In this document: positions 12,449 through 44,931 of the stretch, piece after piece
Position numbering within the stretch: the first letter of the stretch is position 1
Layout of the letters: each line of letters begins with the position of its first letter
From: Sphingopyxis lindanitolerans
GTDB taxonomy: Bacteria; Pseudomonadota; Alphaproteobacteria; Sphingomonadales; Sphingomonadaceae
Assembly (NCBI RefSeq): GCF_002993885.1
Contig: NZ_CM009578.1
Span: 1,367,251-1,431,250, forward strand
DNA length: 64,000 bases
Direction: 5' to 3'
Notes under the pieces: generated by a model
Databases searched by the model: none
The model's input: only the letters and a program-made list of their open reading frames with translations
What the model was told of the DNA's origin: nothing
Position numbers and translations under genes: made by a program

Positions 12449-13582
12449 ATGATCCGCGCGCGCATTCGATCGATCCATCGCTGGGCGAGCATCGCGATGC
12501 TGGGCTTCTGGCTGGCCCAGGCGCTCACCGGGCTGCTGCTGGTGTTCCAGTGGGAGATCGACGACGCGACGGTCGCGGGGCCGCGCGTGCCCACCGACAT
12601 TGCGGCGATCGATGCCCGGCTGACCGGACTGGTCGCAGCCGATCCGGGCCTCCGCATCCGGTCGCTCAGCACCACCGGCAGCGGCCTGGATCGCTATGAC
12701 ATCGGCCTGGACGATGGCGGCGAAAGCGTCACGTTGCGCATCGATGGCGCGGGCCGACCGCTGCGCCGCCAGGGGCCGGACGACCGCGTCCGCCACGGCG
12801 CGCTGTTTGACAGCGTCTATGACCTTCACGAAAGCCTGCTGGCGGGCGACGCTGGAATGTGGATCGTCGGGATCAGCGGCCTGTTGCTGCTGTCCAACAT
12901 CATCCTGGGGCTGATCCTCGCATGGCCGGGACGACGCTGGGCGCGCTGGCGGATGGCGCTGCGCCCCACCATGGCGCGGCCGGGCCCGGCGCGGCCCTAT
13001 GGCTGGCACCGCACCGCCGGGCTGTGGATGGCGATTCCGGCATTCCTGACCATCAGTTGCGGCACCGCGCTGATCTTCATCGTCGGTATCGAGGGGCTGG
13101 CCGGGATCAGCCGGGACGAACCCGCCGCGCCCGCGCTGAAGGCCGGCCAGGCCGCGATCGCGATGCCCGACGCGGTGGCGCGCGCGCGCCGCCTCTACCC
13201 CCGGGCGACGCTGACCCGGATCGACTATCCCACCAACGATACCCCCTCCTATGCCGTGCAATTCCGCCAGCCGGGCGAGGCGGCGCTGATCTTTGGATCG
13301 ACCATCGTCTATGTCGCGGCGGCGGACGGCCGCGTCACCGGCCGGGTCGATCCGTTCACCATGCCGCTGCGCCAACGGGCGCTGGATCTGCTCTATCCCA
13401 TCCACACCGGCGAAATCGGCGGGCTGACGGGGCGGATCACGATCTTCCTGATCGGGCTGTGGCTGACGCTGATGATCGGGCTCGGCTTCTGGCTCTGGCA
13501 GTCGCGGCGCAGCGGCCGGAAAGCCCCGTCGCGGGGGACACAGCGCGCCATGCACCATCAAAACGGATCGGAAATGCGATGA
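12449..13582 (+). CDS. PepSY-associated TM helix protein
   Basis: A 377-residue inner-membrane protein. Helices lie near residues 10-30, 146-168, 194-220 and 336-360, with the large loop between the third and fourth outside the membrane. This is the PepSY_TM layout seen in PiuB-like proteins linked to iron or siderophore use and to flavin reduction. IRSIHRWASIAMLGFWLAQA is the typical first helix with its histidine, and YGWHRTAGLWMAI is the second conserved histidine helix. A GAGAAGGGAGGGG ribosome-binding site supports the ATG at 12449. Four-base overlap couples it to the amino-acid permease. Confidence 0.82.
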   Translation: MIRARIRSIHRWASIAMLGFWLAQALTGLLLVFQWEIDDATVAGPRVPTDIAAIDARLTGLVAADPGLRIRSLSTTGSGLDRYDIGLDDGGESVTLRIDGAGRPLRRQGPDDRVRHGALFDSVYDLHESLLAGDAGMWIVGISGLLLLSNIILGLILAWPGRRWARWRMALRPTMARPGPARPYGWHRTAGLWMAIPAFLTISCGTALIFIVGIEGLAGISRDEPAAPALKAGQAAIAMPDAVARARRLYPRATLTRIDYPTNDTPSYAVQFRQPGEAALIFGSTIVYVAAADGRVTGRVDPFTMPLRQRALDLLYPIHTGEIGGLTGRITIFLIGLWLTLMIGLGFWLWQSRRSGRKAPSRGTQRAMHHQNGSEMR

Positions 13583-14913
13583 CCCAGGACGGCACGACCG
13601 CGAACCCGCGCCCGCTCAAGGCCCGCCATGTCAGCATGATCTCGATCGGCGGGATCATCGGGTCGGGATTGTTCGTCGGCAGCAGCGCGGCGATCGCCGC
13701 GACCGGCCCGGCGATCGTCGTCAGCTATGCCATCGCAGGCGTGCTGATCCTGCTGGTGATGCGGATGCTTGCCGACATGGCGTTGGCGTCGCCCGGCGCG
13801 GGATCGTTCACCGAACATATCCGCATCGGCCTGGGCAATGGCGCGGGCTTCGTCGCCGGCTGGCTCTATTGGATTTTCTGGGCGCTGGCGATCGCGCTGG
13901 AGGGGCTGGCGGGGGCCAGCATCATCGTCACCTGGCTGCCGGGGACGGAGCCGTGGCAGGTCGGGCTGCTGCTGGTCGGCGGCATGACCGCGCTCAACCT
14001 GTTGTCGGTCCGCGCCTTTGGCGAATCCGAATTCTGGCTGTCGGGGATCAAGGTGGCGGCGATCCTCCTGTTCATCGGCGTCGCGGCCTTCGCGGTCGGC
14101 AAGGGCATGATCGGCGGCGGCGGCATCCCCGCGCCGCTCTATGCCTTTGGCGGCTTCGCGCCCTTTGGCGCGGCGTCGGTCTTTTCGGGCGTGACCGCGG
14201 TGATCCTGGCGCTGGTCGGGGCGGAGATCATCACGATCGCCGCCGCCGACGCGCACGAGCCGGGGCCGGTGATCGCGCGGCTGACCACGACGCTGATCAT
14301 CCGGGTCGCGCTCTTCTATCTGCTGTCGATGCTGCTGATCGTCGCGATCGTGCCGTGGACCACGATCCGTCCCGGCGCATCGCCCTTTGCCATGGCGCTC
14401 GCCGCCGTCGGCGCGCCCGGCGCGTCGCTGGTGATGAACGCGGTGATCATCGTCGCGGTGCTGTCGTGCATGAATTCGGGCGTCTATGTCTGTTCGCGGG
14501 TGCTGACGGCGCTGGCCGCGAAAGGCGAGGCGCCGGCCTGGTTCGGCAAGGCCGACGCGCGCGGCGTTCCGGTGCGCGCGATCCTCGCCGGATCGGGGGC
14601 GGCGGCGCTGGCGGTGCTGGCGTCGGTCCTGTCGGCCGAACGGCTGTTCGCGATGCTGGTCAATGCGACCGGCATGGTGATGCTGATCGTCTATCTGATG
14701 CTGGTGCTCGCCCATATGGGCTTTGTTCGCCGGGGCGGGGAAAGCCGCCTGCCGCGCGCGGCCGCCCCGATCGTCATCGCGGCGATGGTCGCGGTGATCG
14801 CGTCGATGCTGGCGACCCCCGGCCTTGCCTCGCAGGCCTGGGCCGGGCTGGCCAGCACCGCGCTGCTCGCGCTCGCCTATCGCGCCCTATCGCGCCGCCG
14901 CGCGCCGGCCTGA
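13579..14913 (+). CDS. amino-acid permease, APC superfamily (AAT type)
   Basis: A 444-residue permease with about 12 hydrophobic helices. The first helix shows SMISIGGIIGSGLFVGSS, the unwound GSG substrate-binding motif of the AAT family (GabP, AroP, ProY), followed by PGAGSFTEH and AEIITIAAADA typical of helix 6. Substrate is probably an amino acid or small amine; specificity cannot be read. It begins inside the PepSY gene stop (ATGA), so the two are cotranslated. It is the first clear uptake gene of the amino-acid/peptide island. Confidence 0.87.
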   Translation: MTQDGTTANPRPLKARHVSMISIGGIIGSGLFVGSSAAIAATGPAIVVSYAIAGVLILLVMRMLADMALASPGAGSFTEHIRIGLGNGAGFVAGWLYWIFWALAIALEGLAGASIIVTWLPGTEPWQVGLLLVGGMTALNLLSVRAFGESEFWLSGIKVAAILLFIGVAAFAVGKGMIGGGGIPAPLYAFGGFAPFGAASVFSGVTAVILALVGAEIITIAAADAHEPGPVIARLTTTLIIRVALFYLLSMLLIVAIVPWTTIRPGASPFAMALAAVGAPGASLVMNAVIIVAVLSCMNSGVYVCSRVLTALAAKGEAPAWFGKADARGVPVRAILAGSGAAALAVLASVLSAERLFAMLVNATGMVMLIVYLMLVLAHMGFVRRGGESRLPRAAAPIVIAAMVAVIASMLATPGLASQAWAGLASTALLALAYRALSRRRAPA

Positions 14914-14952
14914 GCCAGGCCCATTATGTTGGTCTTTTTACATATATTGCCA

Positions 14953-14982: not shown

Positions 14983-15022
14983 AGTTGCAATGGATCAGCA
15001 TGACCGATCGGCCGGAGACAAT

Positions 15023-15793
15023 ATGGACAATCTGACCGCGCCGAACCTGTCGGACTGGCCCGACCCGGTGGAATGGGTCAATCGGTCCGGACGGTCCCCC
15101 ATCATCCTGTTGTGCGAACATGCGTCGAACCATATTCCCGCCTGTTATGACGGGCTGGGGCTGAGCGAGGCCGACCGCGGCCGCCATATCGCCTGGGACA
15201 TCGGCGCGGCGGCGGTGACCCGGCGGCTGTCGGCGCTGCTCGACGCGCCGGCCGTTCTGGGCACGTATTCGCGGTTGCTGATCGACCTCAATCGCCCGCC
15301 CGACGGCGACGGGTCGATCGTCGTCCTGTCCGAAGATACGCCGATCGCGGCGAACAAGGATCTGGACGGGGCCGAACGCGCGTTGCGGCAGGCGCGGATC
15401 TTCGCGCCCTATCAGGATGCGGTGGGCGCGCTGGTCGACGCGAGGATCGCCGACGGATCGCCCGTCATCCTGGTCGCGATCCACAGTTTCAACCCGACCT
15501 TCCTCGATCAGGCGCGGCCCTGGCACGTCGGCATCCTGTTCGGCCGCGCGTCGATGCTGGGCGAACGGCTGGTCGGGCGATTGGCGGCGGATGCGGCGCT
15601 CCACATCGGCGTCAACCAACCCTATTCGGTCAGCCGCCAGGAAGATTATGCCATATTGGTCCATGGCGACGATCGCGACATTCCGGCCGTGCTGATCGAA
15701 ATCCGCAACGACGGGCTGGCGGACGCCGCGCAGGTCGAGGCGTGGGCCCGGCGCCTGGCGGCAATCCTGGCACCCGAAGCGAGCGCGCCATGA
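15023..15793 (+). CDS. N-formylglutamate amidohydrolase family protein
   Basis: A 256-residue zinc-dependent hydrolase of PF05013. ILLCEHASNHIPACYDGL near residue 29 is the family signature. LIDLNRPP, VAIHSFNP and the late LIEIRNDGL also match. The reference reaction releases formate from N-formyl-L-glutamate in histidine breakdown; no hut genes are nearby, so another N-acyl or formyl amino acid may be the substrate. The ATG at 15023 follows a GGAG at 15014; an in-frame ATG at 14990 sits on the predicted transcription start and could be a leaderless start. First gene of a plus-strand set with the RpiR, isochorismatase and GS-like genes. Confidence 0.85.
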   Translation: MDNLTAPNLSDWPDPVEWVNRSGRSPIILLCEHASNHIPACYDGLGLSEADRGRHIAWDIGAAAVTRRLSALLDAPAVLGTYSRLLIDLNRPPDGDGSIVVLSEDTPIAANKDLDGAERALRQARIFAPYQDAVGALVDARIADGSPVILVAIHSFNPTFLDQARPWHVGILFGRASMLGERLVGRLAADAALHIGVNQPYSVSRQEDYAILVHGDDRDIPAVLIEIRNDGLADAAQVEAWARRLAAILAPEASAP

Positions 15794-15931: not shown

Positions 15932-16825
15932 ATGGCGAACGACACGCAAAAGACCGAACGGATGCCGATCCGGGACATGCTGGGCCGCAGCACGGTCAGC
16001 CTGACCCGGTCCGAATCGCGGATCGTCCAATTGTTGCTCGCCGACTATCCGGTCGCGGGCCTCGGCAGCGCGTCGAGCCTCGCCAAGCGCGCGGGGGTGA
16101 GCGATCCGACCGTGGCGCGCTTCGTCACCAAATTCGGGTTCGAGAATTTCGCCGCCTTCCAGGCCGCCCTGCTTGAGGATGTCGAGGCGCGGCTGCGCTC
16201 GCCGCTGATGATGCTCGAAACCAAGCAGGCGGAGGGCGAGCATGACGCGACCGTCAATCGCTATATGGCGTCGGTCACCCAGAAATTGCGCGACGCGACC
16301 GAAGCGGCGGTGTCCGAACCCTATGACCGCGCGGTCGACCTGATCATGGGGGCAAAGGGCAGCGTGACGCTGGTCGGCGGCCGCTTCAGCCGCCACGTCG
16401 CCGGGATGCTCGCGGGCTATCTGCTGCAATTGCGGTCGGACGTGCATTCGATATCGCCGCTGACGCTGGAAAGTTTCGACCGGCTGGTCGACATCGGCCG
16501 CCGCGATACGCTGATCGTCTTCGACTATCGCCGTTACCAGACCGACGTCGTCGAATTCGCACGCCAGGCCGAAGCGCGCGGCGCGCATGTCATCCTGTTC
16601 ACCGATCCGTGGATGTCGCCGGTCGCCGAGGTCGCCGACGTCGTCATCATCGCCTCGGTCGAGGTCGATTCGCCCTATGATTCGCTGGCCCCCGCCGTGG
16701 CGCAGATGGAGGCGCTCGTCGCGCATGCCGTCGTGCGCGAAAAGCGCGTGATGGAGCGGCGCGTCGCCGATCTCGAAAAGCTGCGCAGCGCCAATGCCGT
16801 AACCGTGGATGAACCCGCCCCATGA
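15932..16825 (+). CDS. MurR/RpiR family transcriptional regulator
   Basis: A 297-residue protein with an N-terminal HTH_6 domain (about 10-90; SLAKRAGVSDPTVARFVTKF is the recognition region) and a C-terminal SIS sugar-isomerase-like domain (VTLVGGRFSRHVAGMLAGY near 145, then LIVFDYRRYQTD). Relatives respond to phosphosugars, for example MurNAc-6-phosphate for MurR, while a subgroup regulates amino-acid or opine use. The ATG at 15932 follows AGAGGG. It overlaps the isochorismatase-like gene by four bases and is the likely local regulator of the AT-rich promoters in this island. Confidence 0.87.
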   Translation: MANDTQKTERMPIRDMLGRSTVSLTRSESRIVQLLLADYPVAGLGSASSLAKRAGVSDPTVARFVTKFGFENFAAFQAALLEDVEARLRSPLMMLETKQAEGEHDATVNRYMASVTQKLRDATEAAVSEPYDRAVDLIMGAKGSVTLVGGRFSRHVAGMLAGYLLQLRSDVHSISPLTLESFDRLVDIGRRDTLIVFDYRRYQTDVVEFARQAEARGAHVILFTDPWMSPVAEVADVVIIASVEVDSPYDSLAPAVAQMEALVAHAVVREKRVMERRVADLEKLRSANAVTVDEPAP

Positions 16826-17472
16826 CGATTTTGCGTCCCGATATCCGCCGCGATGACCCCTATCCGGCGGCGGCAACCGCCTTGCTGCTGGTCGACATGC
16901 AGCGCATCTGGCTGGAACCGGGGCGCAATCCGGGGCACCCCGACTGGGACGCCGGCCATCCCTTTCACCGCGATGTCGCCGCGCGCGCCATCCCCAACCA
17001 GGCGCGACTGCTCGCCGCCGCGCGCGCCGGCGGGGTCGAGGTGATCCACACGATCATCCGCAGCCTCACCCGCGACGGGCGCGACCGCTCGCTCGACCAC
17101 AAGATGACGCCGCTGCACGTCGGCCCCGACGATCCGCTGGCGTTGCCGGTGCCCGAACTGGCGGTCGGCGCGGACGAGATATTGCTGCCCAAGACCTCGT
17201 CGGGCGTCTTCAACTCGACCAACATCGACTATGTCCTGCGCAACCTTGGCATCACCCACCTTGTCGTCGCCGGGATCATGACCGACCAGTGCGTCGATAT
17301 GGCCGTGCGCGACGCGGCCGACCGCGGCTTTGTCGTCACCTGCGTCGGCGACGCCTGCGCCGCGGCGACGGCCGAGCGCCACAGCCACGCGCTGGGCGCC
17401 TTCGGCGGCTATTGCTGGGTCGCCGATACCGACACGGTGGAGGCGCGGTTCCGGGCGATGCGTGCGCCATGA
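16822..17472 (+). CDS. isochorismatase-fold cysteine hydrolase
   Basis: A 216-residue cysteine hydrolase. The catalytic triad is visible: Asp25 in LLLVDMQRIW, Lys near 121 in LLPKTSSGVF and Cys near 156 in IMTDQCVDMAVRDA. The cis-peptide before TDQC is also typical. Family members hydrolyse nicotinamide, N-carbamoyl compounds, ureidoacrylate or isochorismate. Start and stop overlap both neighbours by four bases (RpiR upstream, GS-like downstream), so it belongs to one translation-coupled set. An amide released in the same pathway as the GS-like ligase is the likely substrate. Confidence 0.85.
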   Translation: MTILRPDIRRDDPYPAAATALLLVDMQRIWLEPGRNPGHPDWDAGHPFHRDVAARAIPNQARLLAAARAGGVEVIHTIIRSLTRDGRDRSLDHKMTPLHVGPDDPLALPVPELAVGADEILLPKTSSGVFNSTNIDYVLRNLGITHLVVAGIMTDQCVDMAVRDAADRGFVVTCVGDACAAATAERHSHALGAFGGYCWVADTDTVEARFRAMRAP

Positions 17473-18782
17473 CGATGGCGCTGACCGGGATCGTCACCAC
17501 CGACCTGGCGGCGATCACGCGCGGGCGCTGGGTATCGACCGCACGCTATGAAGCGGGGGATGACGGCGGGATCGGCTGGCTTCCCGCCAATCTGGCGCTG
17601 ACCCCGTTCGGCGGCATCGCCACCCCCAATCCGTGGGGATCGATCGGCGACCTGCGCGTCATCGCCGACCGCGCCGCGCGCTATCGCACCGCCGCCACGG
17701 GCGCCGCGACCACCTTCGACATCGTCATGGGCGACATCGTCGAGCTGGACGGCACGCCGTGGCGCTGTTGCCCGCGCACCCTGCTGCGCGACGCGGTGGC
17801 CGCCTTGCGCGCCGAGACCGGCCTGTCGCTGCGCATCGCGGTCGAGCAGGAGTTCCAGATCTTCGGCGCCGGTTTTCCGGCCGCCCACCCGCTGTCGATC
17901 ACCGCGCTGCGCCGCGCCGATCCCTTTGCCCCGCTGCTGATGGCGGCGCTCGACGAAGCCGGGGTCGATCCCGAAGTCGTGCTCGCCGAATTCGGCACCG
18001 ACCAGTTCGAGGTCACCTGCTCGCCCGCCGATCCGATCACCGCCGCCGACCGCGCCATCGCGATCCGCGAGATCGTGCGCGAGATCGTCGGGGTGCGCGG
18101 CTGGCAGGCGAGTTTCGCGCCCAAGACCGCGCCGGACGCGGTTGGCAACGGCGTCCACATCCATTTCAGCCTGACCGACGCCGAGGGCCGCCCCGCCGGT
18201 TACGACGGTGCGCAGCCCGGCGGGCTGTCGGCGCAGGGCGCGAGCTTTTGCGCAGGCGTTTTGCGCCATCTGCCGGCGCTGACGATGTTCAGCGCCCCCA
18301 GCGTCACGTCCTATTACCGGCTGCGGCCGCAGGGATGGAGCGCGTCGTGGACCTGGCTCGCCGACCGCGACCGCGAGGCGACGCTCCGCATTTGTCCGAC
18401 GACGACGGTGGGCGGCCGCGATCCGGCGCGCCAGCACAATGTCGAATATCGCGCCGCCGACGCCACCGCCAACCCCTATGTCGCGATCGCCGCGCTGATC
18501 CGTGCCGGGCTGGGCGGGCTGGTCGACGGCCTGCCGCCGCCGCCGGTCGTCGTCGAGCATCCCGATACGCTCGACCCGGCGGCCTGCGCCGCGCTCGGTC
18601 TGCGCCGCCTGCCCGAGACGCTCGCGGAGGCAATGGCGGCGTGGCAGGGCGACGCCGTCGCCCTTGGTTGGTTCGCGCCGGACTTTGCCGAGACCTGGCG
18701 CAGTGTCCGCCGGGCGGAACTGGCGCGGCTCGCCGACCTGACCCCCGACGAGGCGTGCCGGCTCTACCGCGATCTTTATTGA
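17469..18782 (+). CDS. glutamine-synthetase family ligase (PuuA-like)
   Basis: A 437-residue protein of the GS fold. The metal and substrate motifs VEQEFQIF near residue 120, EFGTDQFEVTC near 175, NGVHIHFSL near 225 and VEYRAADATANPYVAI near 325 are all present. The length and lack of an adenylylation-loop motif fit gamma-glutamyl-polyamine or other gamma-glutamyl ligases rather than housekeeping GlnA. A ligase joining glutamate to an amine agrees with the ALDH on the opposite strand, as in the Puu pathway, but no PuuB oxidase or PuuD hydrolase is nearby. The ATG at 17469 is fixed by a four-base overlap. Confidence 0.83.
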   Translation: MTMALTGIVTTDLAAITRGRWVSTARYEAGDDGGIGWLPANLALTPFGGIATPNPWGSIGDLRVIADRAARYRTAATGAATTFDIVMGDIVELDGTPWRCCPRTLLRDAVAALRAETGLSLRIAVEQEFQIFGAGFPAAHPLSITALRRADPFAPLLMAALDEAGVDPEVVLAEFGTDQFEVTCSPADPITAADRAIAIREIVREIVGVRGWQASFAPKTAPDAVGNGVHIHFSLTDAEGRPAGYDGAQPGGLSAQGASFCAGVLRHLPALTMFSAPSVTSYYRLRPQGWSASWTWLADRDREATLRICPTTTVGGRDPARQHNVEYRAADATANPYVAIAALIRAGLGGLVDGLPPPPVVVEHPDTLDPAACAALGLRRLPETLAEAMAAWQGDAVALGWFAPDFAETWRSVRRAELARLADLTPDEACRLYRDLY

Positions 18783-18785: not shown

Positions 18786-19268
18786 TCAGGGGCGCAGCGC
18801 CAGCTTCATCAGGTGCAGCCGCTCGCCGTCATGATCGACGATCCGGTAGGTGCGATAGCCGAGCCGGTAATAAAGCGAATCGTCGCCCGCGGTCGAGGCG
18901 AGGAACAGCGCGGGGAAATCGAGCACCGCCGCCCGCTCCGCGACATGGTCGCACAGCCGGGCGGCGATGCCCGCGCCGCGGGCTTCGGCGGGAACATAGA
19001 CGTTGCACAGCCACGGCTCGACACCGGGATCCCAATCGACGCTGTCGCGCGCGCGCAGGCTGGCGACGCCCAGCGGGATCGCCCCATCGAGCGCGACATA
19101 GGAGCGCGGCAGGAGCGCGGCTTCGTCCTCGGTAAAGCGCGCGCGCGTATCGGCGAGGGTGCGTCCGCTGAACGCGCCCCATTCGGCGTCGATCCATCGG
19201 ACCACCGCATCGATCGCGGCCGGATGGTCGAGCAGGGGTATGATGCGCAGGGCCGCCACGCCGCTCAT
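18786..19268 (-). CDS. GNAT family N-acetyltransferase
   Basis: A 160-residue acetyltransferase. CNVYVPAEARGAGIAARLCD near residue 89 is motif A with the RGxGxA pyrophosphate loop, and LYYRLGYRTY near 133 is motif B. It resembles the small GNATs that acetylate amino groups of amino acids or polyamines. The ATG at 19268 overlaps the stop of the aldehyde dehydrogenase by four bases, so it is the last gene of a three-gene operon. Acetylating an amine intermediate would fit the neighbourhood. The substrate is not known. The end lies 3 bp from the convergent GS-like gene. Confidence 0.85.
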   Translation of the reverse strand: MSGVAALRIIPLLDHPAAIDAVVRWIDAEWGAFSGRTLADTRARFTEDEAALLPRSYVALDGAIPLGVASLRARDSVDWDPGVEPWLCNVYVPAEARGAGIAARLCDHVAERAAVLDFPALFLASTAGDDSLYYRLGYRTYRIVDHDGERLHLMKLALRP

Positions 19269-20755
19269 CCGGTGATGATCTGGACGGATTTCAGCCGCTG
19301 ATAGGCGCGCATCCCCTGTTGCCCGCCCAGCACGCCATGACCCGACCCGCCAAAAGGTTCGGCGGGCATCAGGTGCAGCGGCGCGCCCATGGCGGCGCTG
19401 GCGCGGATGTCGATCCGCCCGGCGTCGATATCGCGCGCCATCCGCCGCGCGCGGCCGATGTCGCGGGTCCACAGCGTCGCCGCCAGCCCGTGCGGCGTGT
19501 CGTTGGCGATCCGCACCGCATCGGCCTCGTCCGAAAAGGGGATCAGCGCGATCAGCGGGCCGAAAATTTCCTCGCGCGCGACGCGCATCGCACCCGACGC
19601 GGCGGCGAAGATGCCGGGCGGCACGAAATAGCCCTTCTCCGGCATCGTCCCACCCGTCGCGATCACCCGATGGTCCGCCTTTTCGGCGGCGCCGATGTCG
19701 AGATAGGATTGCACCCGCCCCTGCTGCGCGCGGCTGGCGAGCGGGCCATAGCTGACGAGGGGGTCGAGCGGATCGCCGACGGTGAACAGCCGCGCGGTGG
19801 CTTCGCGCACCCAATCGATCAGCGCGTCGGCGATGCCGCGCTCGACCAGCAGGCGGGTGCGCGCGACGCAGATCTGGCCCGAATTGGCGAAGGCCGACGC
19901 GGCAATCGAATCGGCCAGTCCGTCCAGACCCACGGCATCGGCAAAGACGATCTGCGGCGATTTGCCGCCGCCCTCCAGCATCACCGGCTTGCCGTTCGAC
20001 TGGCCCGCGGCGACCATGATCCGCCGCCCGGTCGCCGCCGATCCAACAAAGCCGATCTGATCGACATCATCATGGCCGGCCAGCGCCGCGCCGGTTTCGC
20101 CGCCGCCCGCCACCGCGTTGATCACGCCGGGCGGCAGTCCCGCCTCGGCCGCGATCCGCGCCAGCGCCAGCACCGAGGACGGCGCGACCGGCGACGGCTT
20201 GGCGACCACCGTATTGCCCGCCGCGATGGCGGGAGCGATCGCCGCGACCGCGACCAGCAAGGGGAAATTCCACGACGATATGATGCCGACGACGCCGCGC
20301 GGCTCATACCAGTTCATCGCCAGCACATGCGCGGCGTCGGCATGGACGACCTCGCCGCGCGGCTGGTCGATCGCGGCGGCATAATAGCGGGTGAAGCGCA
20401 CCGCCTCGTCGACCGCGCCGAGCGCGTTGCTGATCGGCATCCCCATTTCGAGGCAGTCCATCAGCGCCAGCCTGTCGCGTGCGGCATGGATGCCGTCGGC
20501 CAGCGCGTGAAGATGCGCCTGCCGCTGGTCCGGGGCGATCGACCGCCAGCCATCGGCGAAGCAGTGCCGCGCCGCGGAGACGGCGCGGTCGATATCCTCG
20601 GCATTGCCGTCGGCGATCATCGCCAGCGACTGCTCTGTGAAGGGACAGTCGGTGGCAAAACTGGCCCGCGATCGCGGCGCGCGGGCGTCACCGCCGATGA
20701 ACGGGCGGCCGTCGAACGCGATGCGCCGCGCCGCTGCGTGCCAGTCGGTCGTCAT
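19265..20755 (-). CDS. aldehyde dehydrogenase
   Basis: A 496-residue ALDH of normal length. SSWNFPLLVAV near residue 160, VGSAATGRRI near 238, MLEGGGKSPQ near 258 (general base Glu) and NSGQICVARTR near 293 (catalytic Cys) are intact. The C-terminal PFGGSGHGVLGG segment is that of the PuuC/betaine-type subgroup. With the GS-like gene on the opposite strand, oxidation of a gamma-glutamylamino-aldehyde is possible, but general amine-derived aldehydes are equally so. The start is fixed by the four-base overlap with the acetoacetate-decarboxylase-like gene. Confidence 0.88.
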   Translation of the reverse strand: MTTDWHAAARRIAFDGRPFIGGDARAPRSRASFATDCPFTEQSLAMIADGNAEDIDRAVSAARHCFADGWRSIAPDQRQAHLHALADGIHAARDRLALMDCLEMGMPISNALGAVDEAVRFTRYYAAAIDQPRGEVVHADAAHVLAMNWYEPRGVVGIISSWNFPLLVAVAAIAPAIAAGNTVVAKPSPVAPSSVLALARIAAEAGLPPGVINAVAGGGETGAALAGHDDVDQIGFVGSAATGRRIMVAAGQSNGKPVMLEGGGKSPQIVFADAVGLDGLADSIAASAFANSGQICVARTRLLVERGIADALIDWVREATARLFTVGDPLDPLVSYGPLASRAQQGRVQSYLDIGAAEKADHRVIATGGTMPEKGYFVPPGIFAAASGAMRVAREEIFGPLIALIPFSDEADAVRIANDTPHGLAATLWTRDIGRARRMARDIDAGRIDIRASAAMGAPLHLMPAEPFGGSGHGVLGGQQGMRAYQRLKSVQIITG

Positions 20756-21573
20756 GACAGGATGCGCTGGTCGCTGAGGTCCTTCGCGCCCCGCGTCACG
20801 CTGACCGAGGCGGCAAGGCATGGCCCCAGCGGCACATCGGCCAGCGCCTCGACGATATGATGGAGCGTCGGCAATTGCTCCCAACTCGACCGCTGCCAGT
20901 CGAGCGTCGCCCCCGCCGCCGCCTGCGTGGTTTCGACCCGCAAATGCCCGCCCGTCGCCGGGGTCAGCACCGCATATTCGGCGTCGGCCACGCCGGGCGC
21001 GCCGGTGCGTGGGATATATTTATAATGCAGCAGGCCCTGCGACGGCGGCGGATCGCCCTGCCCCTCCCCATCGCCCAGCCCGTCCAGCCTGAGCGCCGCG
21101 AAACCGCAGCCGTCCCAGCTTGCCCGGCAGGTGATCCCCCGCGACGTTTCCATCGGCGGCGGCAAGTCGCAATAGAGTTTGGAGAAGCCCAGTTCCTCGC
21201 GCCCGCTGATGATCGGGTCAGCCATATTTTCCCACAATATCAGCATCAGGTCACCGGCGATCCGCTCGCTCGTGCCCGCATATGTGGCGGGAATGGTGAC
21301 GCCGAAAGTGTTGTAACCGCGCCCCGCCAGCCAGGCGATTTCGGTCATGTAGCAAAAACTGACGTGCAGTTCGCCGCGCGCCACCGCGAAGCCCGGCGGC
21401 ATGAACGCCGCCAGCCGGTCGGCCGGGGCGGCGAAGGCGGCGTGGACGATATGCTGGCGCGGATCGTTCCGGCATTCGTAGCGCTCGCCCGCCGGCCCCT
21501 GGCGCGGACCGGGCATCGGGCCGAAATGGGTGGGCATGCGATAGCGCATGGCGGGAAGGAAGGCGTAGGACAT
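20752..21573 (-). CDS. acetoacetate decarboxylase-like protein
   Basis: A 273-residue member of the acetoacetate decarboxylase (ADC) superfamily. The core ILWENMADPIISGREELGFS near residue 113 is the ADC motif, followed by a single Lys and YCDLP; classical ADC uses paired lysines (Lys115 Schiff base, Lys116). The N-terminal 30 residues are extra. Members also act as decarboxylases or aldolase-dehydratases on other keto acids. It leads a minus-strand operon with the ALDH and GNAT genes and is divergent from the penicillin acylase gene, with a palindrome in its predicted promoter. Confidence 0.75.
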   Translation of the reverse strand: MSYAFLPAMRYRMPTHFGPMPGPRQGPAGERYECRNDPRQHIVHAAFAAPADRLAAFMPPGFAVARGELHVSFCYMTEIAWLAGRGYNTFGVTIPATYAGTSERIAGDLMLILWENMADPIISGREELGFSKLYCDLPPPMETSRGITCRASWDGCGFAALRLDGLGDGEGQGDPPPSQGLLHYKYIPRTGAPGVADAEYAVLTPATGGHLRVETTQAAAGATLDWQRSSWEQLPTLHHIVEALADVPLGPCLAASVSVTRGAKDLSDQRILS

Positions 21574-29156: not shown

Positions 29157-29236
29157 CAGCGTGAAGCCGGGGAGAGGGCAGCGACCGCACAGGATAAAGC
29201 GCGGCGATGTCCCCGAGCGTTTCGGGAGGCAAAAGG

Positions 29237-32286: not shown

Positions 32287-33970
32287 CCACGCGCGCCGGT
32301 TGATCCCGGCGTTGGTCGCGATGTTGCTGGCCGGGTGCGTAACGCGGCCTTCCTTCGATGTGGTGATCCGGCACGGGACGATCTACGACGGATCGGGCGC
32401 CGCGCCTGTCGTCGGCGACGTCGCCATTCGGGGCGGCCGCATCGCCTATGTCGGCGCGCATGCGCCGGGCACCGCGCGGCGGACGATCGACGCGACGGGC
32501 AAGGCGGTGGCGCCGGGCTTCATCAACATGCTGAGCTGGGCAACCGAATCGCTGCTGGTCGACGGGCGAGGCCTGAGCGACCTGCGCCAGGGCGTGACGC
32601 TGGAGGTGATGGGCGAAGGCAGCTCGATGGGACCACTGACCCCGATGATGGCGAAGGCGCTGGTCGCCCAGCAGGAGGAGGGCATCCGCTACCCGGTGCG
32701 CTGGACCACATTGGGCGGATATCTCGATCATGTCGCGGCAAAGGGGATCGCGCCCAATATCGCCTCCTTCGTCGGCGCCGCGACGGCGCGCGAGATGGTG
32801 CTGGGCGAAGCCGCCGTCGATCCCGATCCGGCGCAGCTTGACGCGATGCGCGGCGTCGTCCGGCAGGCGATGGACGAAGGCGCGATGGGGGTCGCCTCGG
32901 CGCTGATCTATCCCCCCGGCGCCTTTGCCAAGACCCCCGAACTGACGGCGCTCGCCGAGGCGGCGGCACGTTGCGGCGGTATCTACGCAACCCATCTGCG
33001 CAGCGAGGGCGACCGTTTCCTCGAAAGCGTCGATGAAGCGATCGCGATCGGGCGCGCCGCCGATGTTCCCGTCCATTTCTATCATCTGAAGGTCGGCGGG
33101 CGCGACAATTGGCCGAAGATGGCGACCGCGATCGCGCGGATCGAGGCGGCGCGCGTTGCGGGGCTTCGGGTGAGCGCCGATGTCTATCCCTATATCGCCT
33201 CGGGAACCGGGCTCGACGCATCGATGCCGCCCTGGCTGTTCGACGGCGGCATCGACGCCGCGATCGCGCGGCTGAACGATCCCGCCACGCGCCGCCGCGT
33301 CATCGCCGAAATGCAGGGCAAGGGGGACTGGGAAAATGTGCTGCGCATGGCCGGCCCCGACAAGGCGGTTATCGCCGGCGTCCGCACCATCGCGCTCCAG
33401 CCGCTGGTCGGCCGGACCCTGGCCGATATCGCGCGCGAGCGCGGGGTGTCGCCCGAGGAAGCGGCGATCGAGCTCGTCGTCGCCGACCACGGCCGGGTCG
33501 ACACCATCTATGAGACGATGAGCGAGGACAATCTGCGCGCCGCGATCGCCTGGCCGTTCACCGCGATCGGATCCGACGCACCCGCGATCGCGACCGAGGG
33601 CGCGTTCCTGGGCAGCCGGGTCCATCCGCGCACCTATGGCAGCTTCGCGCGCGTGCTGGGGCGCTACACCCGCGACGAGAAACGGCTGTCGCTGGCCGAG
33701 GTGGTGCGGCGGATGAGCGGCCTGCCCGCGTCGATCCTCGGACTTGCCGATCGCGGCCTGCTGCGCACCGGCTATCATGCCGACATCGTCCTGTTCGATC
33801 CGCGGGCGATTGCCGATCATGCCAGCTTCGCCGACCCGCATCATTATGCGACCGGAGTATCCGACGTGTTCGTCAACGGCATCGCGGCGCTCGCGGACGG
33901 AAAGCCCACCGGCGCGGCGTCGGGCCGCGTGGTGCGCGGGCGCGGGTGGAAGGCATGCCCCGCGCGTTGA
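32279..33970 (+). CDS. lipoprotein amidohydrolase, N-acyl-D-amino-acid deacylase family
   Basis: A 563-residue protein with a lipobox (MLLAGC, Cys20), so it should be anchored in the outer or inner membrane facing the periplasm. The body matches the D-aminoacylase family: VIRHGTIYDGSG, ATHLRSEG, FYHLKVGG, SADVYPYIASGTG and IGSDAPA. The usual PGFIDxHxH metal motif reads PGFINMLSW (79-87), so both HxH histidines are missing. That replacement may define a subfamily; activity as a deacylase is uncertain. It starts inside the AraC gene. The frame is intact with no sign of decay. Confidence 0.8.
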   Translation: MASHARRLIPALVAMLLAGCVTRPSFDVVIRHGTIYDGSGAAPVVGDVAIRGGRIAYVGAHAPGTARRTIDATGKAVAPGFINMLSWATESLLVDGRGLSDLRQGVTLEVMGEGSSMGPLTPMMAKALVAQQEEGIRYPVRWTTLGGYLDHVAAKGIAPNIASFVGAATAREMVLGEAAVDPDPAQLDAMRGVVRQAMDEGAMGVASALIYPPGAFAKTPELTALAEAAARCGGIYATHLRSEGDRFLESVDEAIAIGRAADVPVHFYHLKVGGRDNWPKMATAIARIEAARVAGLRVSADVYPYIASGTGLDASMPPWLFDGGIDAAIARLNDPATRRRVIAEMQGKGDWENVLRMAGPDKAVIAGVRTIALQPLVGRTLADIARERGVSPEEAAIELVVADHGRVDTIYETMSEDNLRAAIAWPFTAIGSDAPAIATEGAFLGSRVHPRTYGSFARVLGRYTRDEKRLSLAEVVRRMSGLPASILGLADRGLLRTGYHADIVLFDPRAIADHASFADPHHYATGVSDVFVNGIAALADGKPTGAASGRVVRGRGWKACPAR

Positions 33971-36215: not shown

Positions 36216-37484
36216 ATGACGGCAGAGGCGGAAAAGAGCTGGTTCGGTCACCCCGCGGGGCTGACCATCCTGTTCCTGACGCAGACGTGGGAACAGTTTT
36301 CCTATTACGGCATGCGCGCGATCGTCGTCTATTACATGGTGACCGACCTGATGATGAGTCAGGCGAAAAGCTCGATGATCTTCGGGGTCTATGTCGCCTT
36401 CTTCTATCTGACGCCGATGCTGGGCGGGGTCATCACCGATCGCTGGCTGGGGCGGCGGCGCGCGATCATCCTCGGTGGGGCGATCATGGCGCTCGGCCAT
36501 TTCCTGCTGACCTTCGAACCCTTTTTCTATGCCGGGCTCGCCGTGATCGTGGTCGGCAACGGATTCTTCCTGCCCGCGATCCCGGCGCAGATCGGCGACC
36601 TCTACCAACCCGGCGACCCGCGCCACGCCGGCGCCTATAATATCTATTATGTCGGCATCAACATCGGCGGCTTCCTCGCGCCCTTCGTCTGCGGCACTTT
36701 GGGCGAGCTTTATGGCTGGCACTGGGGGTTCGGCGCGGCGGGGGTCGGTATGCTCGCCGGGCTGCTGCTCTATATCCTCGGCGGCAAATATCTGCCCGCC
36801 GAGCCTGTCCGCCAGCCCGCCGTCAAGACCGCGCGGACACGCTTTTCGCGCCGGATCATCCTGCTGATGCTGGCGGTCGGCTTTGCCACCACCCTGTTTC
36901 GCGGCGCCTATCAACAGGTCGGCAACACGGTGGCGATCTGGCTGGAAAGCGGGGTCGACCGCGGCATCGGCGACCTTTCGATCCCGATGACCTGGTTCCA
37001 GGCACTCAATCCGCTGTTCGTCTTCGCGCTGACCCCCTTGCTGCTGGGCCATTGGCGGCGACGCGCCGCGGCGGGACGCGAGCGCCCGGCAATCGGCCGG
37101 ATGGCGCTCGGCGCGGCGCTGGTCGCGCTGTCCTTCGCGATGCTGGCGGCGCTGGCCGCGATCGCCCACGGTCAGCCGATCCTGTGGCCGTGGCTGGTCG
37201 CCTTCTTCGCGGTGCTGACGCTCGGCGAGCTTTATATCCTGCCCACCGGCCTCTATCTGTTCGATCGCCTCGCGCCGCCCGGATCGAGCGCCTTCGCAAT
37301 CGCCGCCTGGTATGGCACCATCTTTACCGGCAGCCTGTTTTCGGGCTGGGTCGGCACCGCCTGGTCGGCGATGAGCCCCCCGGCCTTTTTCCTGCTGCTC
37401 GCCGGATGCGCGCTGGCCGGGGCCGCGATATTGGGGCTGCTCGGCCGGTCCGATCACTCGCGTCCGGAGAGCAGCGCCTTGTAG
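36216..37484 (+). CDS. POT/PTR family oligopeptide transporter
   Basis: A 422-residue MFS-type peptide transporter with about 12 helices. QTWEQFSYYGMRAIVVYYM at 23-41 is the helix-1 signature, YYVGINIGGFLAPFVCGTLG near 148 the second. The proton-coupling ExxER motif reads Gln23-xx-Glu26-Gln27, so the first Glu and the Arg are replaced. Peptide import linked to protons is the family role; coupling may differ here. A CGGGGGC site precedes the ATG at 36216. It is divergent from the fusion gene and its end overlaps a convergent amidohydrolase by 31 bp. Confidence 0.84.
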   Translation: MTAEAEKSWFGHPAGLTILFLTQTWEQFSYYGMRAIVVYYMVTDLMMSQAKSSMIFGVYVAFFYLTPMLGGVITDRWLGRRRAIILGGAIMALGHFLLTFEPFFYAGLAVIVVGNGFFLPAIPAQIGDLYQPGDPRHAGAYNIYYVGINIGGFLAPFVCGTLGELYGWHWGFGAAGVGMLAGLLLYILGGKYLPAEPVRQPAVKTARTRFSRRIILLMLAVGFATTLFRGAYQQVGNTVAIWLESGVDRGIGDLSIPMTWFQALNPLFVFALTPLLLGHWRRRAAAGRERPAIGRMALGAALVALSFAMLAALAAIAHGQPILWPWLVAFFAVLTLGELYILPTGLYLFDRLAPPGSSAFAIAAWYGTIFTGSLFSGWVGTAWSAMSPPAFFLLLAGCALAGAAILGLLGRSDHSRPESSAL

Positions 37485-38680
37485 CGTTCGGCGAGCAGGG
37501 TCTGGCGCGTGTCCATCGGCATCTGGCGACCCGCGATGAACACCGCCGCCGGTCCGTCGCCGATCTCGAGCGGATCGCCCTGCCAGACGACGATATCGGC
37601 GAGCTTGCCTGGCTCGATCGACCCGAGCCGGTCCGCCACGCCAAAAATGATCGCAGGGTTCAGCGTCACCGCCTTCAGCGCCTCGGCCCATGGCAGACCG
37701 TTGCCGACCGCATTGCCGGCATAAAGCGCGACCAGCCGGGCATCGTGCGGCGCCCCGGCGCTGAACCGATTGAGCGGCGCGATCGCGATCATCACCCCCG
37801 CCTTGGCCAGCCGCGTCGCATTTTCCTGCGTCGCCGCCATCGTCTCGAAATCGACGGGCAGATTGGCGTAGCTGTCGACGATCACCGGGATTTTCGCCGC
37901 CGCGATGCGGTCCGCCACCGTCCAGCCTTCGGTCGCCCCCATCATGATGACGCGGATCGTCGGGTGGCGCGCGGCAAAGGCGATCAATTCCTCGATATCG
38001 GGCGCGCGTTCGACATGCGCCACGATCGGCAACTTGCCCGCGAGCATCGCCCGCAGCGCTTCGCCGTCCGGCCCCTCGGTCTCGGGCGCGGTGCGCAGCG
38101 CTTCTTCCAGCGTGATCCACGCCGCGCCGCGCGCGCCGCCGGCGGCGGCGGCGCCCACCGACCCCAGTTCGACGAGCGCCAGCGCGCGAGGCTGGAACAG
38201 CGGGGCGGCGGCGTCGCCGGTCTGGATCAGCGCGCCGATGCCGCCGAAGATCGACCGGCTCGCCATCGGAAAGATCGCGCCGCGCGTCACCCCCTCGACC
38301 CGCGCCGTCGGGATGATGGTCGAGGCCGGGTTGATCCCGTAACGCACGTCGAAACCGGCGGCGAAGGGCGCGCCCGGCGCCGACTGGTCCTGCGTCGAGG
38401 GCACGGTTTCGACCTCGACCAGCCCAAGCTGGCTATAGGCGCTGAACAGGCCGGGCGTCACCGGCTGCCCCTTGGCATCGATGACGCGCGCATCGGCGGG
38501 GACGGCGACCGCATCGCCGACCGCGACGATGCGGTCGCCCCGGATCAGCACCGTCCCCTTGTCGATTACCCCGCGCGCCGACAGGCTGTGAATCTGGCCG
38601 TTGACGATCGCCACGGTCTCGGCCGCGGCGGGCATGGGAAGCAGCGCGAGCATCAGCGCCATCGCCCGCCCCGCCCTCAT
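37454..38680 (-). CDS. exported amidohydrolase-fold protein lacking HxH
   Basis: A 408-residue protein with a signal peptide (about 1-20) and an amidohydrolase frame: AIVNGQIHSLSARGVIDKGT, then PIVAHVERAPDI near 219 and LNPAIIFGVADRLGSIEPGK near 350. In place of the PGLIDxHxH zinc motif it has PGLFSAYSQ (76-84), with Tyr82 and Gln84 where histidines are expected. It may be a catalytically altered or non-metal partner. The ATG at 38680 overlaps the stop of the upstream complete amidohydrolase by four bases, and tandem pairs like this suggest a heteromer. Confidence 0.8.
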   Translation of the reverse strand: MRAGRAMALMLALLPMPAAAETVAIVNGQIHSLSARGVIDKGTVLIRGDRIVAVGDAVAVPADARVIDAKGQPVTPGLFSAYSQLGLVEVETVPSTQDQSAPGAPFAAGFDVRYGINPASTIIPTARVEGVTRGAIFPMASRSIFGGIGALIQTGDAAAPLFQPRALALVELGSVGAAAAGGARGAAWITLEEALRTAPETEGPDGEALRAMLAGKLPIVAHVERAPDIEELIAFAARHPTIRVIMMGATEGWTVADRIAAAKIPVIVDSYANLPVDFETMAATQENATRLAKAGVMIAIAPLNRFSAGAPHDARLVALYAGNAVGNGLPWAEALKAVTLNPAIIFGVADRLGSIEPGKLADIVVWQGDPLEIGDGPAAVFIAGRQMPMDTRQTLLAERYKALLSGRE

Positions 38681-40158
38681 TTCATGTCTCCTGCGCCCGA
38701 TTGGCCGAGCTCGAAATCGCTCACCCAGCGCGACGCCGGGTTGCTGCGGTCATAAACGATTGCGCCATCGACGAAGACCTTTTCGCTGTGGGTATAGATG
38801 GAAAAGGGATCGCCGCTCCACAGCACCACATCCGCCATCTTGCCCGGCTCGAGCGATCCGGTGCGATCGGCGATGCCGAGCGCGGTCGCCGGATTGTACG
38901 ACATCCATGTCCAGGCGTCGGCTTTGGAAATGTCGATGCCCAGCCGATGCGCGGCGGCGCGCGCCTTGGCGCCTTCCTGGTTCAGATGCTGGATGGTGAC
39001 GCTGTGATCCGAATGGATCATCGCGCAGCCGCCCGCGCGGTGGACGAGGCCGATATTCTGCTGCACCCCGTCATAGGATTCCATATTATACCCCCACCAG
39101 TCGGACCACATCGCCGCGCAGGTGCCTTCCTTCTTCAGCAGGTCGGGGATTTTATAGGCCTCGACCGCATGGTGGAAGGCGCTGACATGATAGCCGAATT
39201 CGCGCGCCATGCTTAGCACCATCGCCATTTCGTCGGCGCGGTGGCAGTGCATATGGACGCGGATATCGCCATCGAGCACGCCCGCCAGCGTCTCGAGCGT
39301 CAGGTCGCGGTCGGGGGCGACCAGCCCCGTCGCACCCGCCGCCTTCGCCTTGTCATAGGCGGCCCAAGCCGCGCGATATTTCTGCGCCTTGATCCAGGTC
39401 GCGCGATAGATGGCGAAATTGCCCATCCGCGTCGCCGGGCGCTCGCCCTTGGTGCCATAGGGATGATTGGCCGCATTATACGACATGGTCGGAATCTCGC
39501 CGCACGCCATCTTGAGCCCATAGGGCGCACCGGGAAATTTCATGGCCTGCGCGGTGCGCGCCGGCACCGTTTTCAGCACCGCCGTCCGCCCGCCGAACAA
39601 ATTGCCCGATCCGGGCAATATCTGCTGGGTGGTGACGCCCCCCGCGGCGGCGCGGCTGAACGCCGGGTCCTGGACCAGCACGCCATGTTCGACCCACACT
39701 TCGGCGGTCACCGGCCCCACGAACTCGTTGACGCTGTCGGCGCCGACCACTTCGGGCATCGGGCCATTGCCGACATGGCTGTGGACGTCGATGATCCCCG
39801 GAGTCACCCATTTGCCGGTGCCGTCGATCACCTCGGCATCGGCCGGAGCTATAATGTCGCGCCCGACCGCGACGATCTTGCCGCCCGCCAGCAGGATCGA
39901 ACCGCCGTCGATCTGCTGTCCCCGCCCGTCGAGCAGCGTGGCGCCGGTGATCATCACGGTGCGCGACGGCAAGGGCCGATAGGTCGACGAATAGGGGTCC
40001 TTGATCGACGGCGCGCGATCGGACGCCGCCCCGACCAGCAGCAGAGCCGCCGCCAGCGCCCCGGCACAGCGGCCGATCGAAAATCCCCCGGCGCCCTGCT
40101 CGATCATCCTCTGGCGCATCCTAATCCTTTCGGATCGTCCCGCCCGTTCTACGCTCAT
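38677..40158 (-). CDS. exported amidohydrolase with intact metal site
   Basis: A 493-residue amidohydrolase. A hydrophobic segment (about 30-46) acts as signal or anchor. The metal site is intact: PGIIDVHSHVG (His126, His128), VHMHCHRADEM near 305 and IHSDHSVTI near 388, with the catalytic Asp in HSDH. TALGIADRTGSLEPGKMADV is the usual C-terminal part. Relatives cleave dipeptides, imides or N-acyl amino acids. Two starts are possible: ATG 40158 (AGGGGG site, four-base overlap with the PaiB-like gene) and ATG 40119 (AAAGGATTAGG site). It is paired with the HxH-less protein downstream. Confidence 0.84.
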   Translation of the reverse strand: MSVERAGRSERIRMRQRMIEQGAGGFSIGRCAGALAAALLLVGAASDRAPSIKDPYSSTYRPLPSRTVMITGATLLDGRGQQIDGGSILLAGGKIVAVGRDIIAPADAEVIDGTGKWVTPGIIDVHSHVGNGPMPEVVGADSVNEFVGPVTAEVWVEHGVLVQDPAFSRAAAGGVTTQQILPGSGNLFGGRTAVLKTVPARTAQAMKFPGAPYGLKMACGEIPTMSYNAANHPYGTKGERPATRMGNFAIYRATWIKAQKYRAAWAAYDKAKAAGATGLVAPDRDLTLETLAGVLDGDIRVHMHCHRADEMAMVLSMAREFGYHVSAFHHAVEAYKIPDLLKKEGTCAAMWSDWWGYNMESYDGVQQNIGLVHRAGGCAMIHSDHSVTIQHLNQEGAKARAAAHRLGIDISKADAWTWMSYNPATALGIADRTGSLEPGKMADVVLWSGDPFSIYTHSEKVFVDGAIVYDRSNPASRWVSDFELGQSGAGDMK

Positions 40159-42426: not shown

Positions 42427-42496
42427 CGCCTTGGTCCCATAGTCAGTCCCATTATTGGATGTTTTGCGAACCAGCTGGCTGCGGAAAGCTGCGACC

Positions 42497-43723: not shown

Positions 43724-44931
43724 TGCTCGCCCCGGCCGCGCTCCTCGCGCTTGCCGCCGTGCCGGCGGCGGCCACGCACCCCGAACGGGCCGGTCCCGCG
43801 CCGCACAGCCATATCCATGCGGCCGAGGAGATGGACGAGGACCAGGGTCCGCTTCTGCTCCGGCTCACCTACACCGGCGAGGTCATGGGCAATGCGGCGG
43901 GCGGCATCCGGCGCGGCGCGCGCTATCTCGACAATCTCGACATATTGTTTGAAGCCGACATGGAGCGTATCGCGGGCTGGGGCGGCGCCCAGATCCATGT
44001 CTATGGCCTCTACAACAACGGGCGCTCGATCAGCCGCCTCGCCGGGGACACCCAGGCGGTCAGCAATATCGAGACCGGCGTTTCGGCCTTGCGCCTTTAC
44101 GAAGCGTGGATCGACCAGAAAATCGGCCAGCATGTCTCGCTGCGCGTCGGCCTCTATGACCTTAATTCGGAGTTCGACTCGATCGAAGCGGCCGACCTGT
44201 TCGTCGGCAGCGCGCACGGGATGGGCACCGACATCGCGCAGAGCGGGCGCAATGGCCCCTCGATCTTTCCATCCACCTCGCTCGCCGCGCGCCTGCACGT
44301 CGCACCGGCTCCGGGCTGGGTGCTGCGCGCCGCGCTGCTTGACGGCGTTCCCGGCGACCCCGATCATCCCCGCCGCACCGCCATCCGGCTCGGCGGCGGC
44401 GATGGCGCGCTGATGATCGGAGAGGTTCAGGCGCCGCTGGGCGAAGGGAAATTATGGCTCGGCCATTGGCGCTACACGGCGCGCTTCGACCTAGGCGACG
44501 GCGGCATCGGCAACAGTAAGGGCAAGGGCAATGCCGGTTCCTACATACGCGGTGCCTTTCCGCTTGCCGCGCGCGACGATCGCCGGCTGGATGGCTTTCT
44601 GCGGCTCGGCACCGCAAGCGGCCGCTTCAACATGTTCGACCGTTTCGCCAGCATCGGGCTCAAATTCAGCGGCTGGGTTCCCGGCCGCGACAAGGACGAA
44701 TTCGGCTTTGCCCTGGCCGCAGCCTTCACCGCCGACAGCCATCGCTCCGCAACGGGCGCCGGACCGTCGGAACTGGCGATCGAGGCAAGCTACCGCGCGC
44801 GATTGGGCGACGGGCTATGGGTCCAGCCGAGCCTTCACTATGTCCGCAATCCCTCCGCCGATCGCGCCATCGCCGATGCGCTGCTGCTCGGCCTGCGGTT
44901 CGAGGCGAGCCACAGCCTGTTCGGCCTTTAG
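43723..44931 (+). CDS. carbohydrate-selective porin, OprB family
   Basis: A 402-residue porin with a signal peptide (about 1-18), then a barrel. LDNLDILFEADMERIAGWGG near residue 75, EAWIDQKIGQHVSLRVGLYDLNSEFD spread over about 126-151 and FPSTSLAARLHVAPAPGWVL near 186 fit the OprB family; the C-terminal strand ends in FGL rather than the usual aromatic residue. The start overlaps the upstream porin stop by one base. His-rich APHSHIHAAEE lies after the signal and may bind metal. OprB porins take up glucose and other sugars in Pseudomonas, but sphingomonad members are broader. The pair may form the outer-membrane entry for island substrates. Confidence 0.78.
   Translation: MLAPAALLALAAVPAAATHPERAGPAPHSHIHAAEEMDEDQGPLLLRLTYTGEVMGNAAGGIRRGARYLDNLDILFEADMERIAGWGGAQIHVYGLYNNGRSISRLAGDTQAVSNIETGVSALRLYEAWIDQKIGQHVSLRVGLYDLNSEFDSIEAADLFVGSAHGMGTDIAQSGRNGPSIFPSTSLAARLHVAPAPGWVLRAALLDGVPGDPDHPRRTAIRLGGGDGALMIGEVQAPLGEGKLWLGHWRYTARFDLGDGGIGNSKGKGNAGSYIRGAFPLAARDDRRLDGFLRLGTASGRFNMFDRFASIGLKFSGWVPGRDKDEFGFALAAAFTADSHRSATGAGPSELAIEASYRARLGDGLWVQPSLHYVRNPSADRAIADALLLGLRFEASHSLFGL

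Follow-up and report, generated by a model that had tools for sequence, protein, structure and literature searches.

We analysed a 64,000-nucleotide stretch of the Sphingopyxis lindanitolerans genome (contig NZ_CM009578.1, positions 1,367,251 to 1,431,250; hereafter the window) and found within it a conserved unit of 23 genes, g12 to g34, which covers approximately 31 kb at window positions 9301-40107 and is probably an accessory island for the catabolism of an N-acylated, D-glutamate (D-Glu)-containing peptide or amide. The left limit of this block is the stop codon of g12 (9301) and the right limit is the start of g34 (~40107). Genes g01 to g58 are our own calls from codon statistics, and domain names are from Pfam and NCBIfam. 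We infer the substrate and all activities of the block from sequence.

From g34 to g12, 23 of 23 genes have the same order and relative orientation in Sphingomonas sp. SCN 67-18 (G067, NZ_MEFG01000016.1), a member of another genus. In a tblastn search of all window genes against 80 kb of this genome (E 1e-10, 40% coverage), protein identities to the block genes were 72-94%, and no window gene besides g12-g34 was matched. At the DNA level, four pieces with 79.9-85.2% identity span window positions 9300-40075 nearly gap-free. The flanks in G067 are flagellar genes on the g34 side (FliP and FliR above cut-offs, FliM and FliD below) and an inositol cluster on the g12 side (IolG, IolC, IolD, IolE and IolB at or above cut-offs). 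This collinearity across genera with unrelated flanks exceeds chance, and establishes the block as conserved. In a control that is one-sided, as the contig stops just after purL, the 16 kb of G067 that precede purL keep none of the window's purL neighbours, and the sole window-like gene there encodes a g01-like protein (34%). Within the genus, Sphingopyxis sp. bin C_3_2 (G260, NZ_JAOZVW010000058.1) carries g10-g41 complete, and because the G067 match ends at g34, g35-g41 are common only to this near relative. No tRNA was found in the window, no repeat frames the block (those between 8900 and 40700 being short and imperfect), there is no Rfam match within 9000-45000, and DNA-level matches of 9301-34000 to 21 plasmid records reach a best coverage of 2%.

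A sequence-only reading of the window had proposed a single accessory unit for amino-acid derivatives at 12449-44931. The collinearity in another genus bears out such a unit, but the edges had to be moved, because the stretch common to another genus ends at the g12 stop and the g34 start: g12-g13 fall inside and g35-g38 outside, so that two porins (g37, g38) and a MocR regulator (g36), counted as members in that reading, lie beyond the block shared with G067. The parts that it listed are present, namely APC permeases (g15, g27), a POT transporter (g32), a TonB receptor (g28), the porins, an N-terminal-nucleophile (Ntn) acylase (g23), a beta-lactamase-fold hydrolase (g24), amidohydrolases (g30, g33, g34), DgcN/DgcA-like proteins (g25, g26) and a glutamine-synthetase-like (GS-like) ligase (g19). 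Its three regulators also exist (RpiR g17, AraC g29 and MocR g36), although g17 fails the MurR NCBIfam equivalog (22.1 versus 408 bits) and is not MurR. Absent from its list were g14, g16, g18, g20, g21, g22, g31 and g35.

The right part of the block, with the DgcN/DgcA-type genes, holds the following:

21713..24058, + strand: g23, PvdQ-like Ntn acylase with a signal-like N-terminus (NF051460; PvdQ alignment)
24055..25449, + strand: g24, S12 serine hydrolase with a Tat-like signal (PF00144)
25436..26437, - strand: g25, DgcN-like protein (NF041892; PF07755, PF17396)
26434..27450, - strand: g26, DgcA, N-acetyl-D-Glu racemase family (NF042940)
27447..28976, - strand: g27, APC permease of the DgcN/DgcA operon (PF13520)
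29207..31495, + strand: g28, TonB-dependent receptor (PF00593, PF07715)
31531..32286, + strand: g29, AraC-family regulator (PF12833)
32279..33970, + strand: g30, D-aminoacylase-like amidohydrolase (alignments to 1m7j type)
33975..36095, - strand: g31, hydroxyacid dehydrogenase/DUF2817 fusion (PF02737, PF00725, PF10994)
36216..37484, + strand: g32, POT-family peptide transporter (TIGR00924, 253.6, above the cut-off of 130.2)
37454..38662, - strand: g33, amidohydrolase with a signal-like N-terminus (PF01979)
38677..40107, - strand: g34, amidohydrolase with a hydrophobic N-terminus (PF01979)

Genes of these types recur together in other sphingomonads. DgcN matches (E 1e-60) were found in 110 of 397 family genomes, 59 of them above the curated cut-off and 51 below. 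We compared 42 family-wide DgcN neighbourhoods (40 hand-picked from the list of DgcN matches plus L094 and L102, some stretches being shorter than 20 kb) with 18 controls beside queA, all from a single genus and one from the block holder G260, and discarded matches with a gene coverage below 30-50%. Near DgcN, g26-type genes were present in 38/42 neighbourhoods (0/18 controls), g30-type in 28/42 (0/18), TonB g28-type in 15/42 (2/18), g23-type in 13/42 (0/18) and g24-type in 11/42 (1/18), in a set that is non-independent because G163 gives three neighbourhoods, G085, G329 and G352 give two each, and second clusters of S. lindanitolerans (G000) and G067 are included. POT genes of the g32 type, 41-57% identical, were followed at eight genus loci picked from the best matches (G264, G220 and lower matches being left out); all eight have a g24-, g26- or g30-type gene, and at seven a DgcA-like gene (38-46%) adjoins the POT gene, the eighth (L191, in G256) having MlrC-like, D-aminoacylase-like, S12 and TonB-like genes instead. 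Together, these data establish recurrence of the set of DgcN, DgcA, D-aminoacylase-like protein, S12 hydrolase, Ntn acylase, POT and TonB, with gene order and the members present differing between loci. This recurrence supports the role in D-Glu-peptide use that sequence predicts for g23-g34, and the enrichment near DgcN, with the DgcA-POT pairing, keeps D-Glu-containing non-ribosomal peptides, as suggested in the sequence-only reading, a plausible target.

The same survey turned up further clusters. The S. lindanitolerans genome has a second DgcN/DgcA cluster (L105, contig 1, 2719171-2728236) with D-aminoacylase-like, APC, TonB- and RpiR-like genes, and G067 has its counterpart (L106). Plasmid p-A-Sy of Sphingobium yanoikuyae (L102) carries DgcA, DgcN, an amidohydrolase, a TonB receptor, a penicillin acylase, DacB and two serine hydrolases adjoining plasmid replication and integrase genes. 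MlrC-like genes lie beside S12 and TonB-like genes at L191, which adds D-aminoacylase-like and POT genes, and at L192 (G352), which adds DgcN; both are candidate mlr-like clusters. Our literature searches found no work joining penicillin acylase, Sphingomonadaceae and D-amino acids, or lipopeptide, Sphingomonas and D-aminoacylase.

Several active-site motifs are established in the right-part proteins. The score of g23 is below the PvdQ equivalog cut-off (NF051460, 796.2 versus 950 bits), and it is therefore named PvdQ-like; its Ser222 aligns with residue 1 of the PvdQ beta chain, which gives the predicted beta-chain start and the Ntn serine. In g24, SVGK at 87, YSN at 174 and HTG at 311 fit SxxK, YxN and HxG, which we take to be the S12 serine hydrolase motifs, and its matches include alkaline D-peptidase, DD-peptidase and ClbP. 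The DgcA equivalog is passed by g26 (NF042940, 416.6 versus 400 bits), and both DUF1611 domains of g25 (PF07755, PF17396) are above cut-off. For g28, codon statistics called the start at 29273, and the open reading frame from the ATG at 29207 is likelier; a g30 start at 32279 yields a lipoprotein-like signal (LAGC). By eye, the N-termini of g12, g23, g24, g30, g33 and g34 are signal-like.

The left part of the block is made up as follows:

9301..11229, - strand: g12, CocE/NonD (S15/PepX) family hydrolase with a signal-like N-terminus (PF02129; N-terminus by eye)
11325..12293, - strand: g13, alpha/beta hydrolase, HSL/LipP1-like esterase (PF07859; 78% in G067)
12449..13582, + strand: g14, PepSY-associated transmembrane protein (PF03929)
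13579..14913, + strand: g15, amino-acid/gamma-aminobutyrate (GABA)-type APC permease (PF00324)
15023..15793, + strand: g16, FGase-family (N-formylglutamate amidohydrolase-like) hydrolase (PF05013)
15932..16825, + strand: g17, RpiR-family regulator (HTH_6 and SIS), not MurR (PF01418, PF01380)
16822..17472, + strand: g18, isochorismatase-like cysteine hydrolase with D/K/C motifs (PF00857)
17469..18782, + strand: g19, GS-like ligase (PF00120, PF16952)
18786..19268, - strand: g20, GNAT acetyltransferase (PF00583)
19265..20755, - strand: g21, aldehyde dehydrogenase (ALDH; PF00171)
20752..21573, - strand: g22, acetoacetate-decarboxylase (ADC)-family protein with an ELGFSK Lys motif (PF06314; 3cmb)

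These domain contents are established. Among more specific models, g12 passes TIGR00976 (240.2, cut-off 66.3), and g15 is below the GABAperm cut-off (350.2 versus 678 bits), g16 below the HutG equivalog (22.1 versus 278.75 bits), g19 below PuuA, the gamma-glutamylputrescine synthetase (216.7 versus 650 bits), and g21 below its best NCBIfam match, PuuC (NF007352, 375 versus 850 bits). We take D/K/C in g18 to be the motif of isochorismatase-like cysteine hydrolases and ELGFSK in g22 to be the Lys motif of the ADC family. The nearest solved structure to g19 is 4hpp (E 8.3e-102), presumably PA5508. AT-rich, strongly conserved intergenic stretches upstream of g16 (14914-15022) and of g28 (28977-29206) are possibly promoters or operators.

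The marker of the block is the g31 fusion. Residues ~1-305 are a lambda-crystallin-type 3-hydroxyacid dehydrogenase. A fold search with whole g31 returned this half only, and the second half (residues ~312-706, DUF2817) was therefore folded separately; the predicted structure has an M14 carboxypeptidase fold with the catalytic residues in what we take to be their roles. Full-length fusions like g31 make up 9 of 77 matches, the window's own included, among the 7991 candidates with most shared words that were scored. Full-length g31 occurs in 2/80 genus genomes and in 3/397 family genomes (a sample in which G260 yielded no row), and this patchy presence implies loss or transfer, alone or combined. 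The third holder, G352, is an 83% complete genome of a different genus with a rearranged and more distant set, in which g25-, TonB-, g26-, g30- and g14-like genes and g31 are followed by g20, g21 and g22. Elsewhere, rhizobial DUF2817 genes lie with genes for M20 aminoacylase, Xaa-Pro peptidase and amidohydrolase, and in Mesorhizobium a dipeptidase gene adjoins that of a g31 dehydrogenase relative, neighbours that fit an amide or peptide substrate. We found nothing relevant in the literature on DUF2817. The g31-type dehydrogenase domain also occurs fused to a GNAT domain or to PF05853 (P0028, P0032).

Several observations weigh against the assignment of the whole block to a D-Glu-containing substrate. 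Its genes form 9 same-strand runs, or 11 if gaps of more than 100 bases split runs, and conserved intergenic stretches separate several of these, so the block need not be a single pathway. Each g12-g22-type gene occurs in at most 2/42 DgcN neighbourhoods; the suggested D-Glu link of g12-g22 therefore rests on conservation of the block and partly on G352, and the enrichment found for the right part was measured against single-genus controls. The g25 protein, which covers model positions 1-326 at full length, is just under the DgcN equivalog (NF041892, 471 versus 480 bits) and is therefore called DgcN-like. Likewise, g30 is labelled D-aminoacylase-like because it is without the metal ligands HxH and Cys96 (HTH of 1m7j aligns with LSW, and NCG with EGS); HxH is kept in 30/31 relatives compared, its loss being common to g30 and L135 only, and the Cys is present in 0/31. 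Equivalents of His220, His250 and Asp366 are kept in g30 (YATHLR, FYHLK, GSD); we take all of these, with their numbering, to be the D-aminoacylase active-site and metal residues of 1m7j. Finally, compared with G067, the block has a mean protein identity of 0.835 and purL one of 0.81, identity at 4-fold sites being 0.66 and 0.61. As the block is about as diverged as this core gene, recent transfer is not supported, and we do not claim a recent joint transfer.

It is possible, though on balance doubtful, that the block is instead a cluster of clusters, in which at least three independent catabolic operons, for amine gamma-glutamylation, hydroxyacid oxidation and D-Glu/D-peptide salvage, stay together while serving different substrates. 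The strand switches speak for this, as does the independent life of two modules. Plasmids of Ensifer, Roseomonas mucosa, Shinella and Phyllobacterium carry the g16-g19-type module (RpiR, cysteine hydrolase, GS-like and FGase genes, 31-62% identical to the window genes) but not the remainder of the block, and there it is accompanied by aminotransferase, ABC importer, deacylase or oxidoreductase genes. On Agrobacterium plasmids pAtl-11c and pAt1D1609b, homologues of g20 (GNAT, 40%), g22 (ADC, 44-45%) and the g31 dehydrogenase (3HCDH, 44%), 40-45% in all, stand with an ALDH that is 35% identical to g21 and matches the window's g08 ALDH better; ADC and 3HCDH follow ABC permease genes, GNAT, ALDH and a PotA/PhnT2-like ATPase are divergent from them, and the importer also has a PotB-like part. 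The dehydrogenase there is standalone beside an ABC importer, whereas in the block it is fused to the M14-fold domain. Against independent operons, all 23 genes are collinear in two genera with differing flanks, and G352 again pairs g31 and g20-g22 with DgcN, DgcA-, D-aminoacylase- and TonB-like genes. The check on chance-joined operons put forward in the sequence-only reading thus came out divided, with two modules living alone elsewhere, yet all kept together across genera. ADC homologues gave a match in 20/397 family genomes, and the full g20-g22/g31 set was present in 0/15 fetched ADC loci outside block holders (G455 and G025 left out), the nearest partial loci being L160, with a 27% dehydrogenase, and L171, with an ALDH. 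Judged by annotation, the module was absent from Paracoccus, Croceicoccus and Roseomonas marmotae neighbourhoods, and two further plasmid regions carried no annotation. On a Terrarubrum plasmid (L155, 6041-8302), the second part of a SIS-domain protein matches g19, regulator and ligase being apparently fused.

Salvage of muropeptides from peptidoglycan, the other target named in the sequence-only reading, is improbable. D-Glu, a POT transporter and an RpiR regulator would suit it, as would dacB in the DgcN cluster of the Sphingobium plasmid, a very weak match of g31 to the murein tripeptide amidase MpaA (19.8 bits, cut-off 157) and a sub-threshold match of g26 to the L-Ala-D/L-Glu epimerase model (282.9 versus 343). 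However, g17 is far under the MurR cut-off and its relatives travel with GS-like and FGase genes, no NagZ, MurNAc-processing, LD-carboxypeptidase or other muropeptide-specific family appears among the block's 23 sets of Pfam hits, and the PvdQ-type acylase would have no obvious role. Less likely still is a diverged mlr pathway for microcystin and nodularin, which are D-Glu-containing substrates: genus and enzyme kinds (serine hydrolase, transporter, D-aminoacylase) agree, but MlrC_C is missing from the Pfam hits to the block (no search was made for MlrA), and the one MlrC_C (PF07171) gene of S. lindanitolerans lies ~1.2 Mb away, with none in the block holders G260 and G067.

If the block is, as we favour, an island for catabolism of an N-acylated, D-Glu-containing peptide or amide, the TonB receptor g28 would import the substrate into the periplasm, where the exported hydrolases (S12 g24, Ntn acylase g23, lipoprotein g30, g33/g34 and CocE-type g12) may cleave at D-residues and strip off the acyl cap. 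The fragments would enter the cell through POT g32 and the APC permeases g15 and g27. DgcN would then acetylate and DgcA racemise, converting D-Glu to N-acetyl-L-Glu, and in the g16-g19 module the GS-like ligase may gamma-glutamylate an amine, with hydrolysis afterwards. The M14-type domain of g31 would release a hydroxyacid that the dehydrogenase part oxidises to a beta-keto acid, for decarboxylation or retro-aldol cleavage by g22 and aldehyde oxidation by g21. More tentatively, all 23 genes might form one pathway for a single D-Glu-containing natural product, e.g. a 3-hydroxyacyl lipopeptide, with a module per building block: g23 for the acyl cap, g24/g30 for bonds at D-residues, g25-g26 for D-Glu, g31/g22/g21/g20 for the hydroxyacid piece and g15-g19 for the amine piece.

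By analogy, the closest known system, and the one the block may work most like, is the mlr cluster. The cluster of Sphingopyxis sp. C-1 comprises mlrA-D with the dipeptidase mlrE and the D-aminoacylase mlrF, and it resembles the block, as does that of Sphingosinicella microcystinivorans B-9, as a sphingomonad cluster with a serine hydrolase, transporter, dipeptidase and D-aminoacylase (PMC4520899, PMC6256522), a comparison by gene kinds, not protein sequences. The block is not an mlr member because no MlrC_C gene lies inside it, and it adds DgcN/DgcA, the Ntn acylase, the TonB receptor, two APC permeases and the g16-g19 and g20-g22/g31 modules. With the DgcN-DgcA D-glutamate pathway, as described in PMC12363236 and PMC10845958, it shares adjacent dgcN- and dgcA-like genes and a permease gene, but here the pair sits within a cluster for peptide and N-acyl uptake and hydrolysis. 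PA5508 is described in eLife as a GoaS enzyme that glutamylates amines (PMC11335346), and the glutamyl-organic-amine synthetases (PA5508, NpaA1) resemble g19 through its 4hpp match, g16-g19 recurring as a module; unlike those systems, the block has no amine oxidase family among its Pfam hits.

Outside the shared block, the FMN-binding gene g35 is divergent from the MocR gene g36, which is barely over the PdxR cut-off (320.9 versus 320), at 40155-42426; the two are perhaps a vitamin B6-related pair.

D-amino-acid-rich peptides and lipopeptides are considered hard to degrade, and a conserved, self-contained cluster of this kind would help explain how environmental sphingomonads use them as food. 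Should the single-pathway reading be true, the block would extend catabolism of the mlr kind, running from outer membrane to cytosol, to a new class of compounds. It offers testable enzymes in the M14-fold/hydroxyacid-dehydrogenase fusion and in a D-aminoacylase relative that has lost part of the metal site, and clusters centred on DgcN or POT are frequent enough among sphingomonads that they could be mined together.

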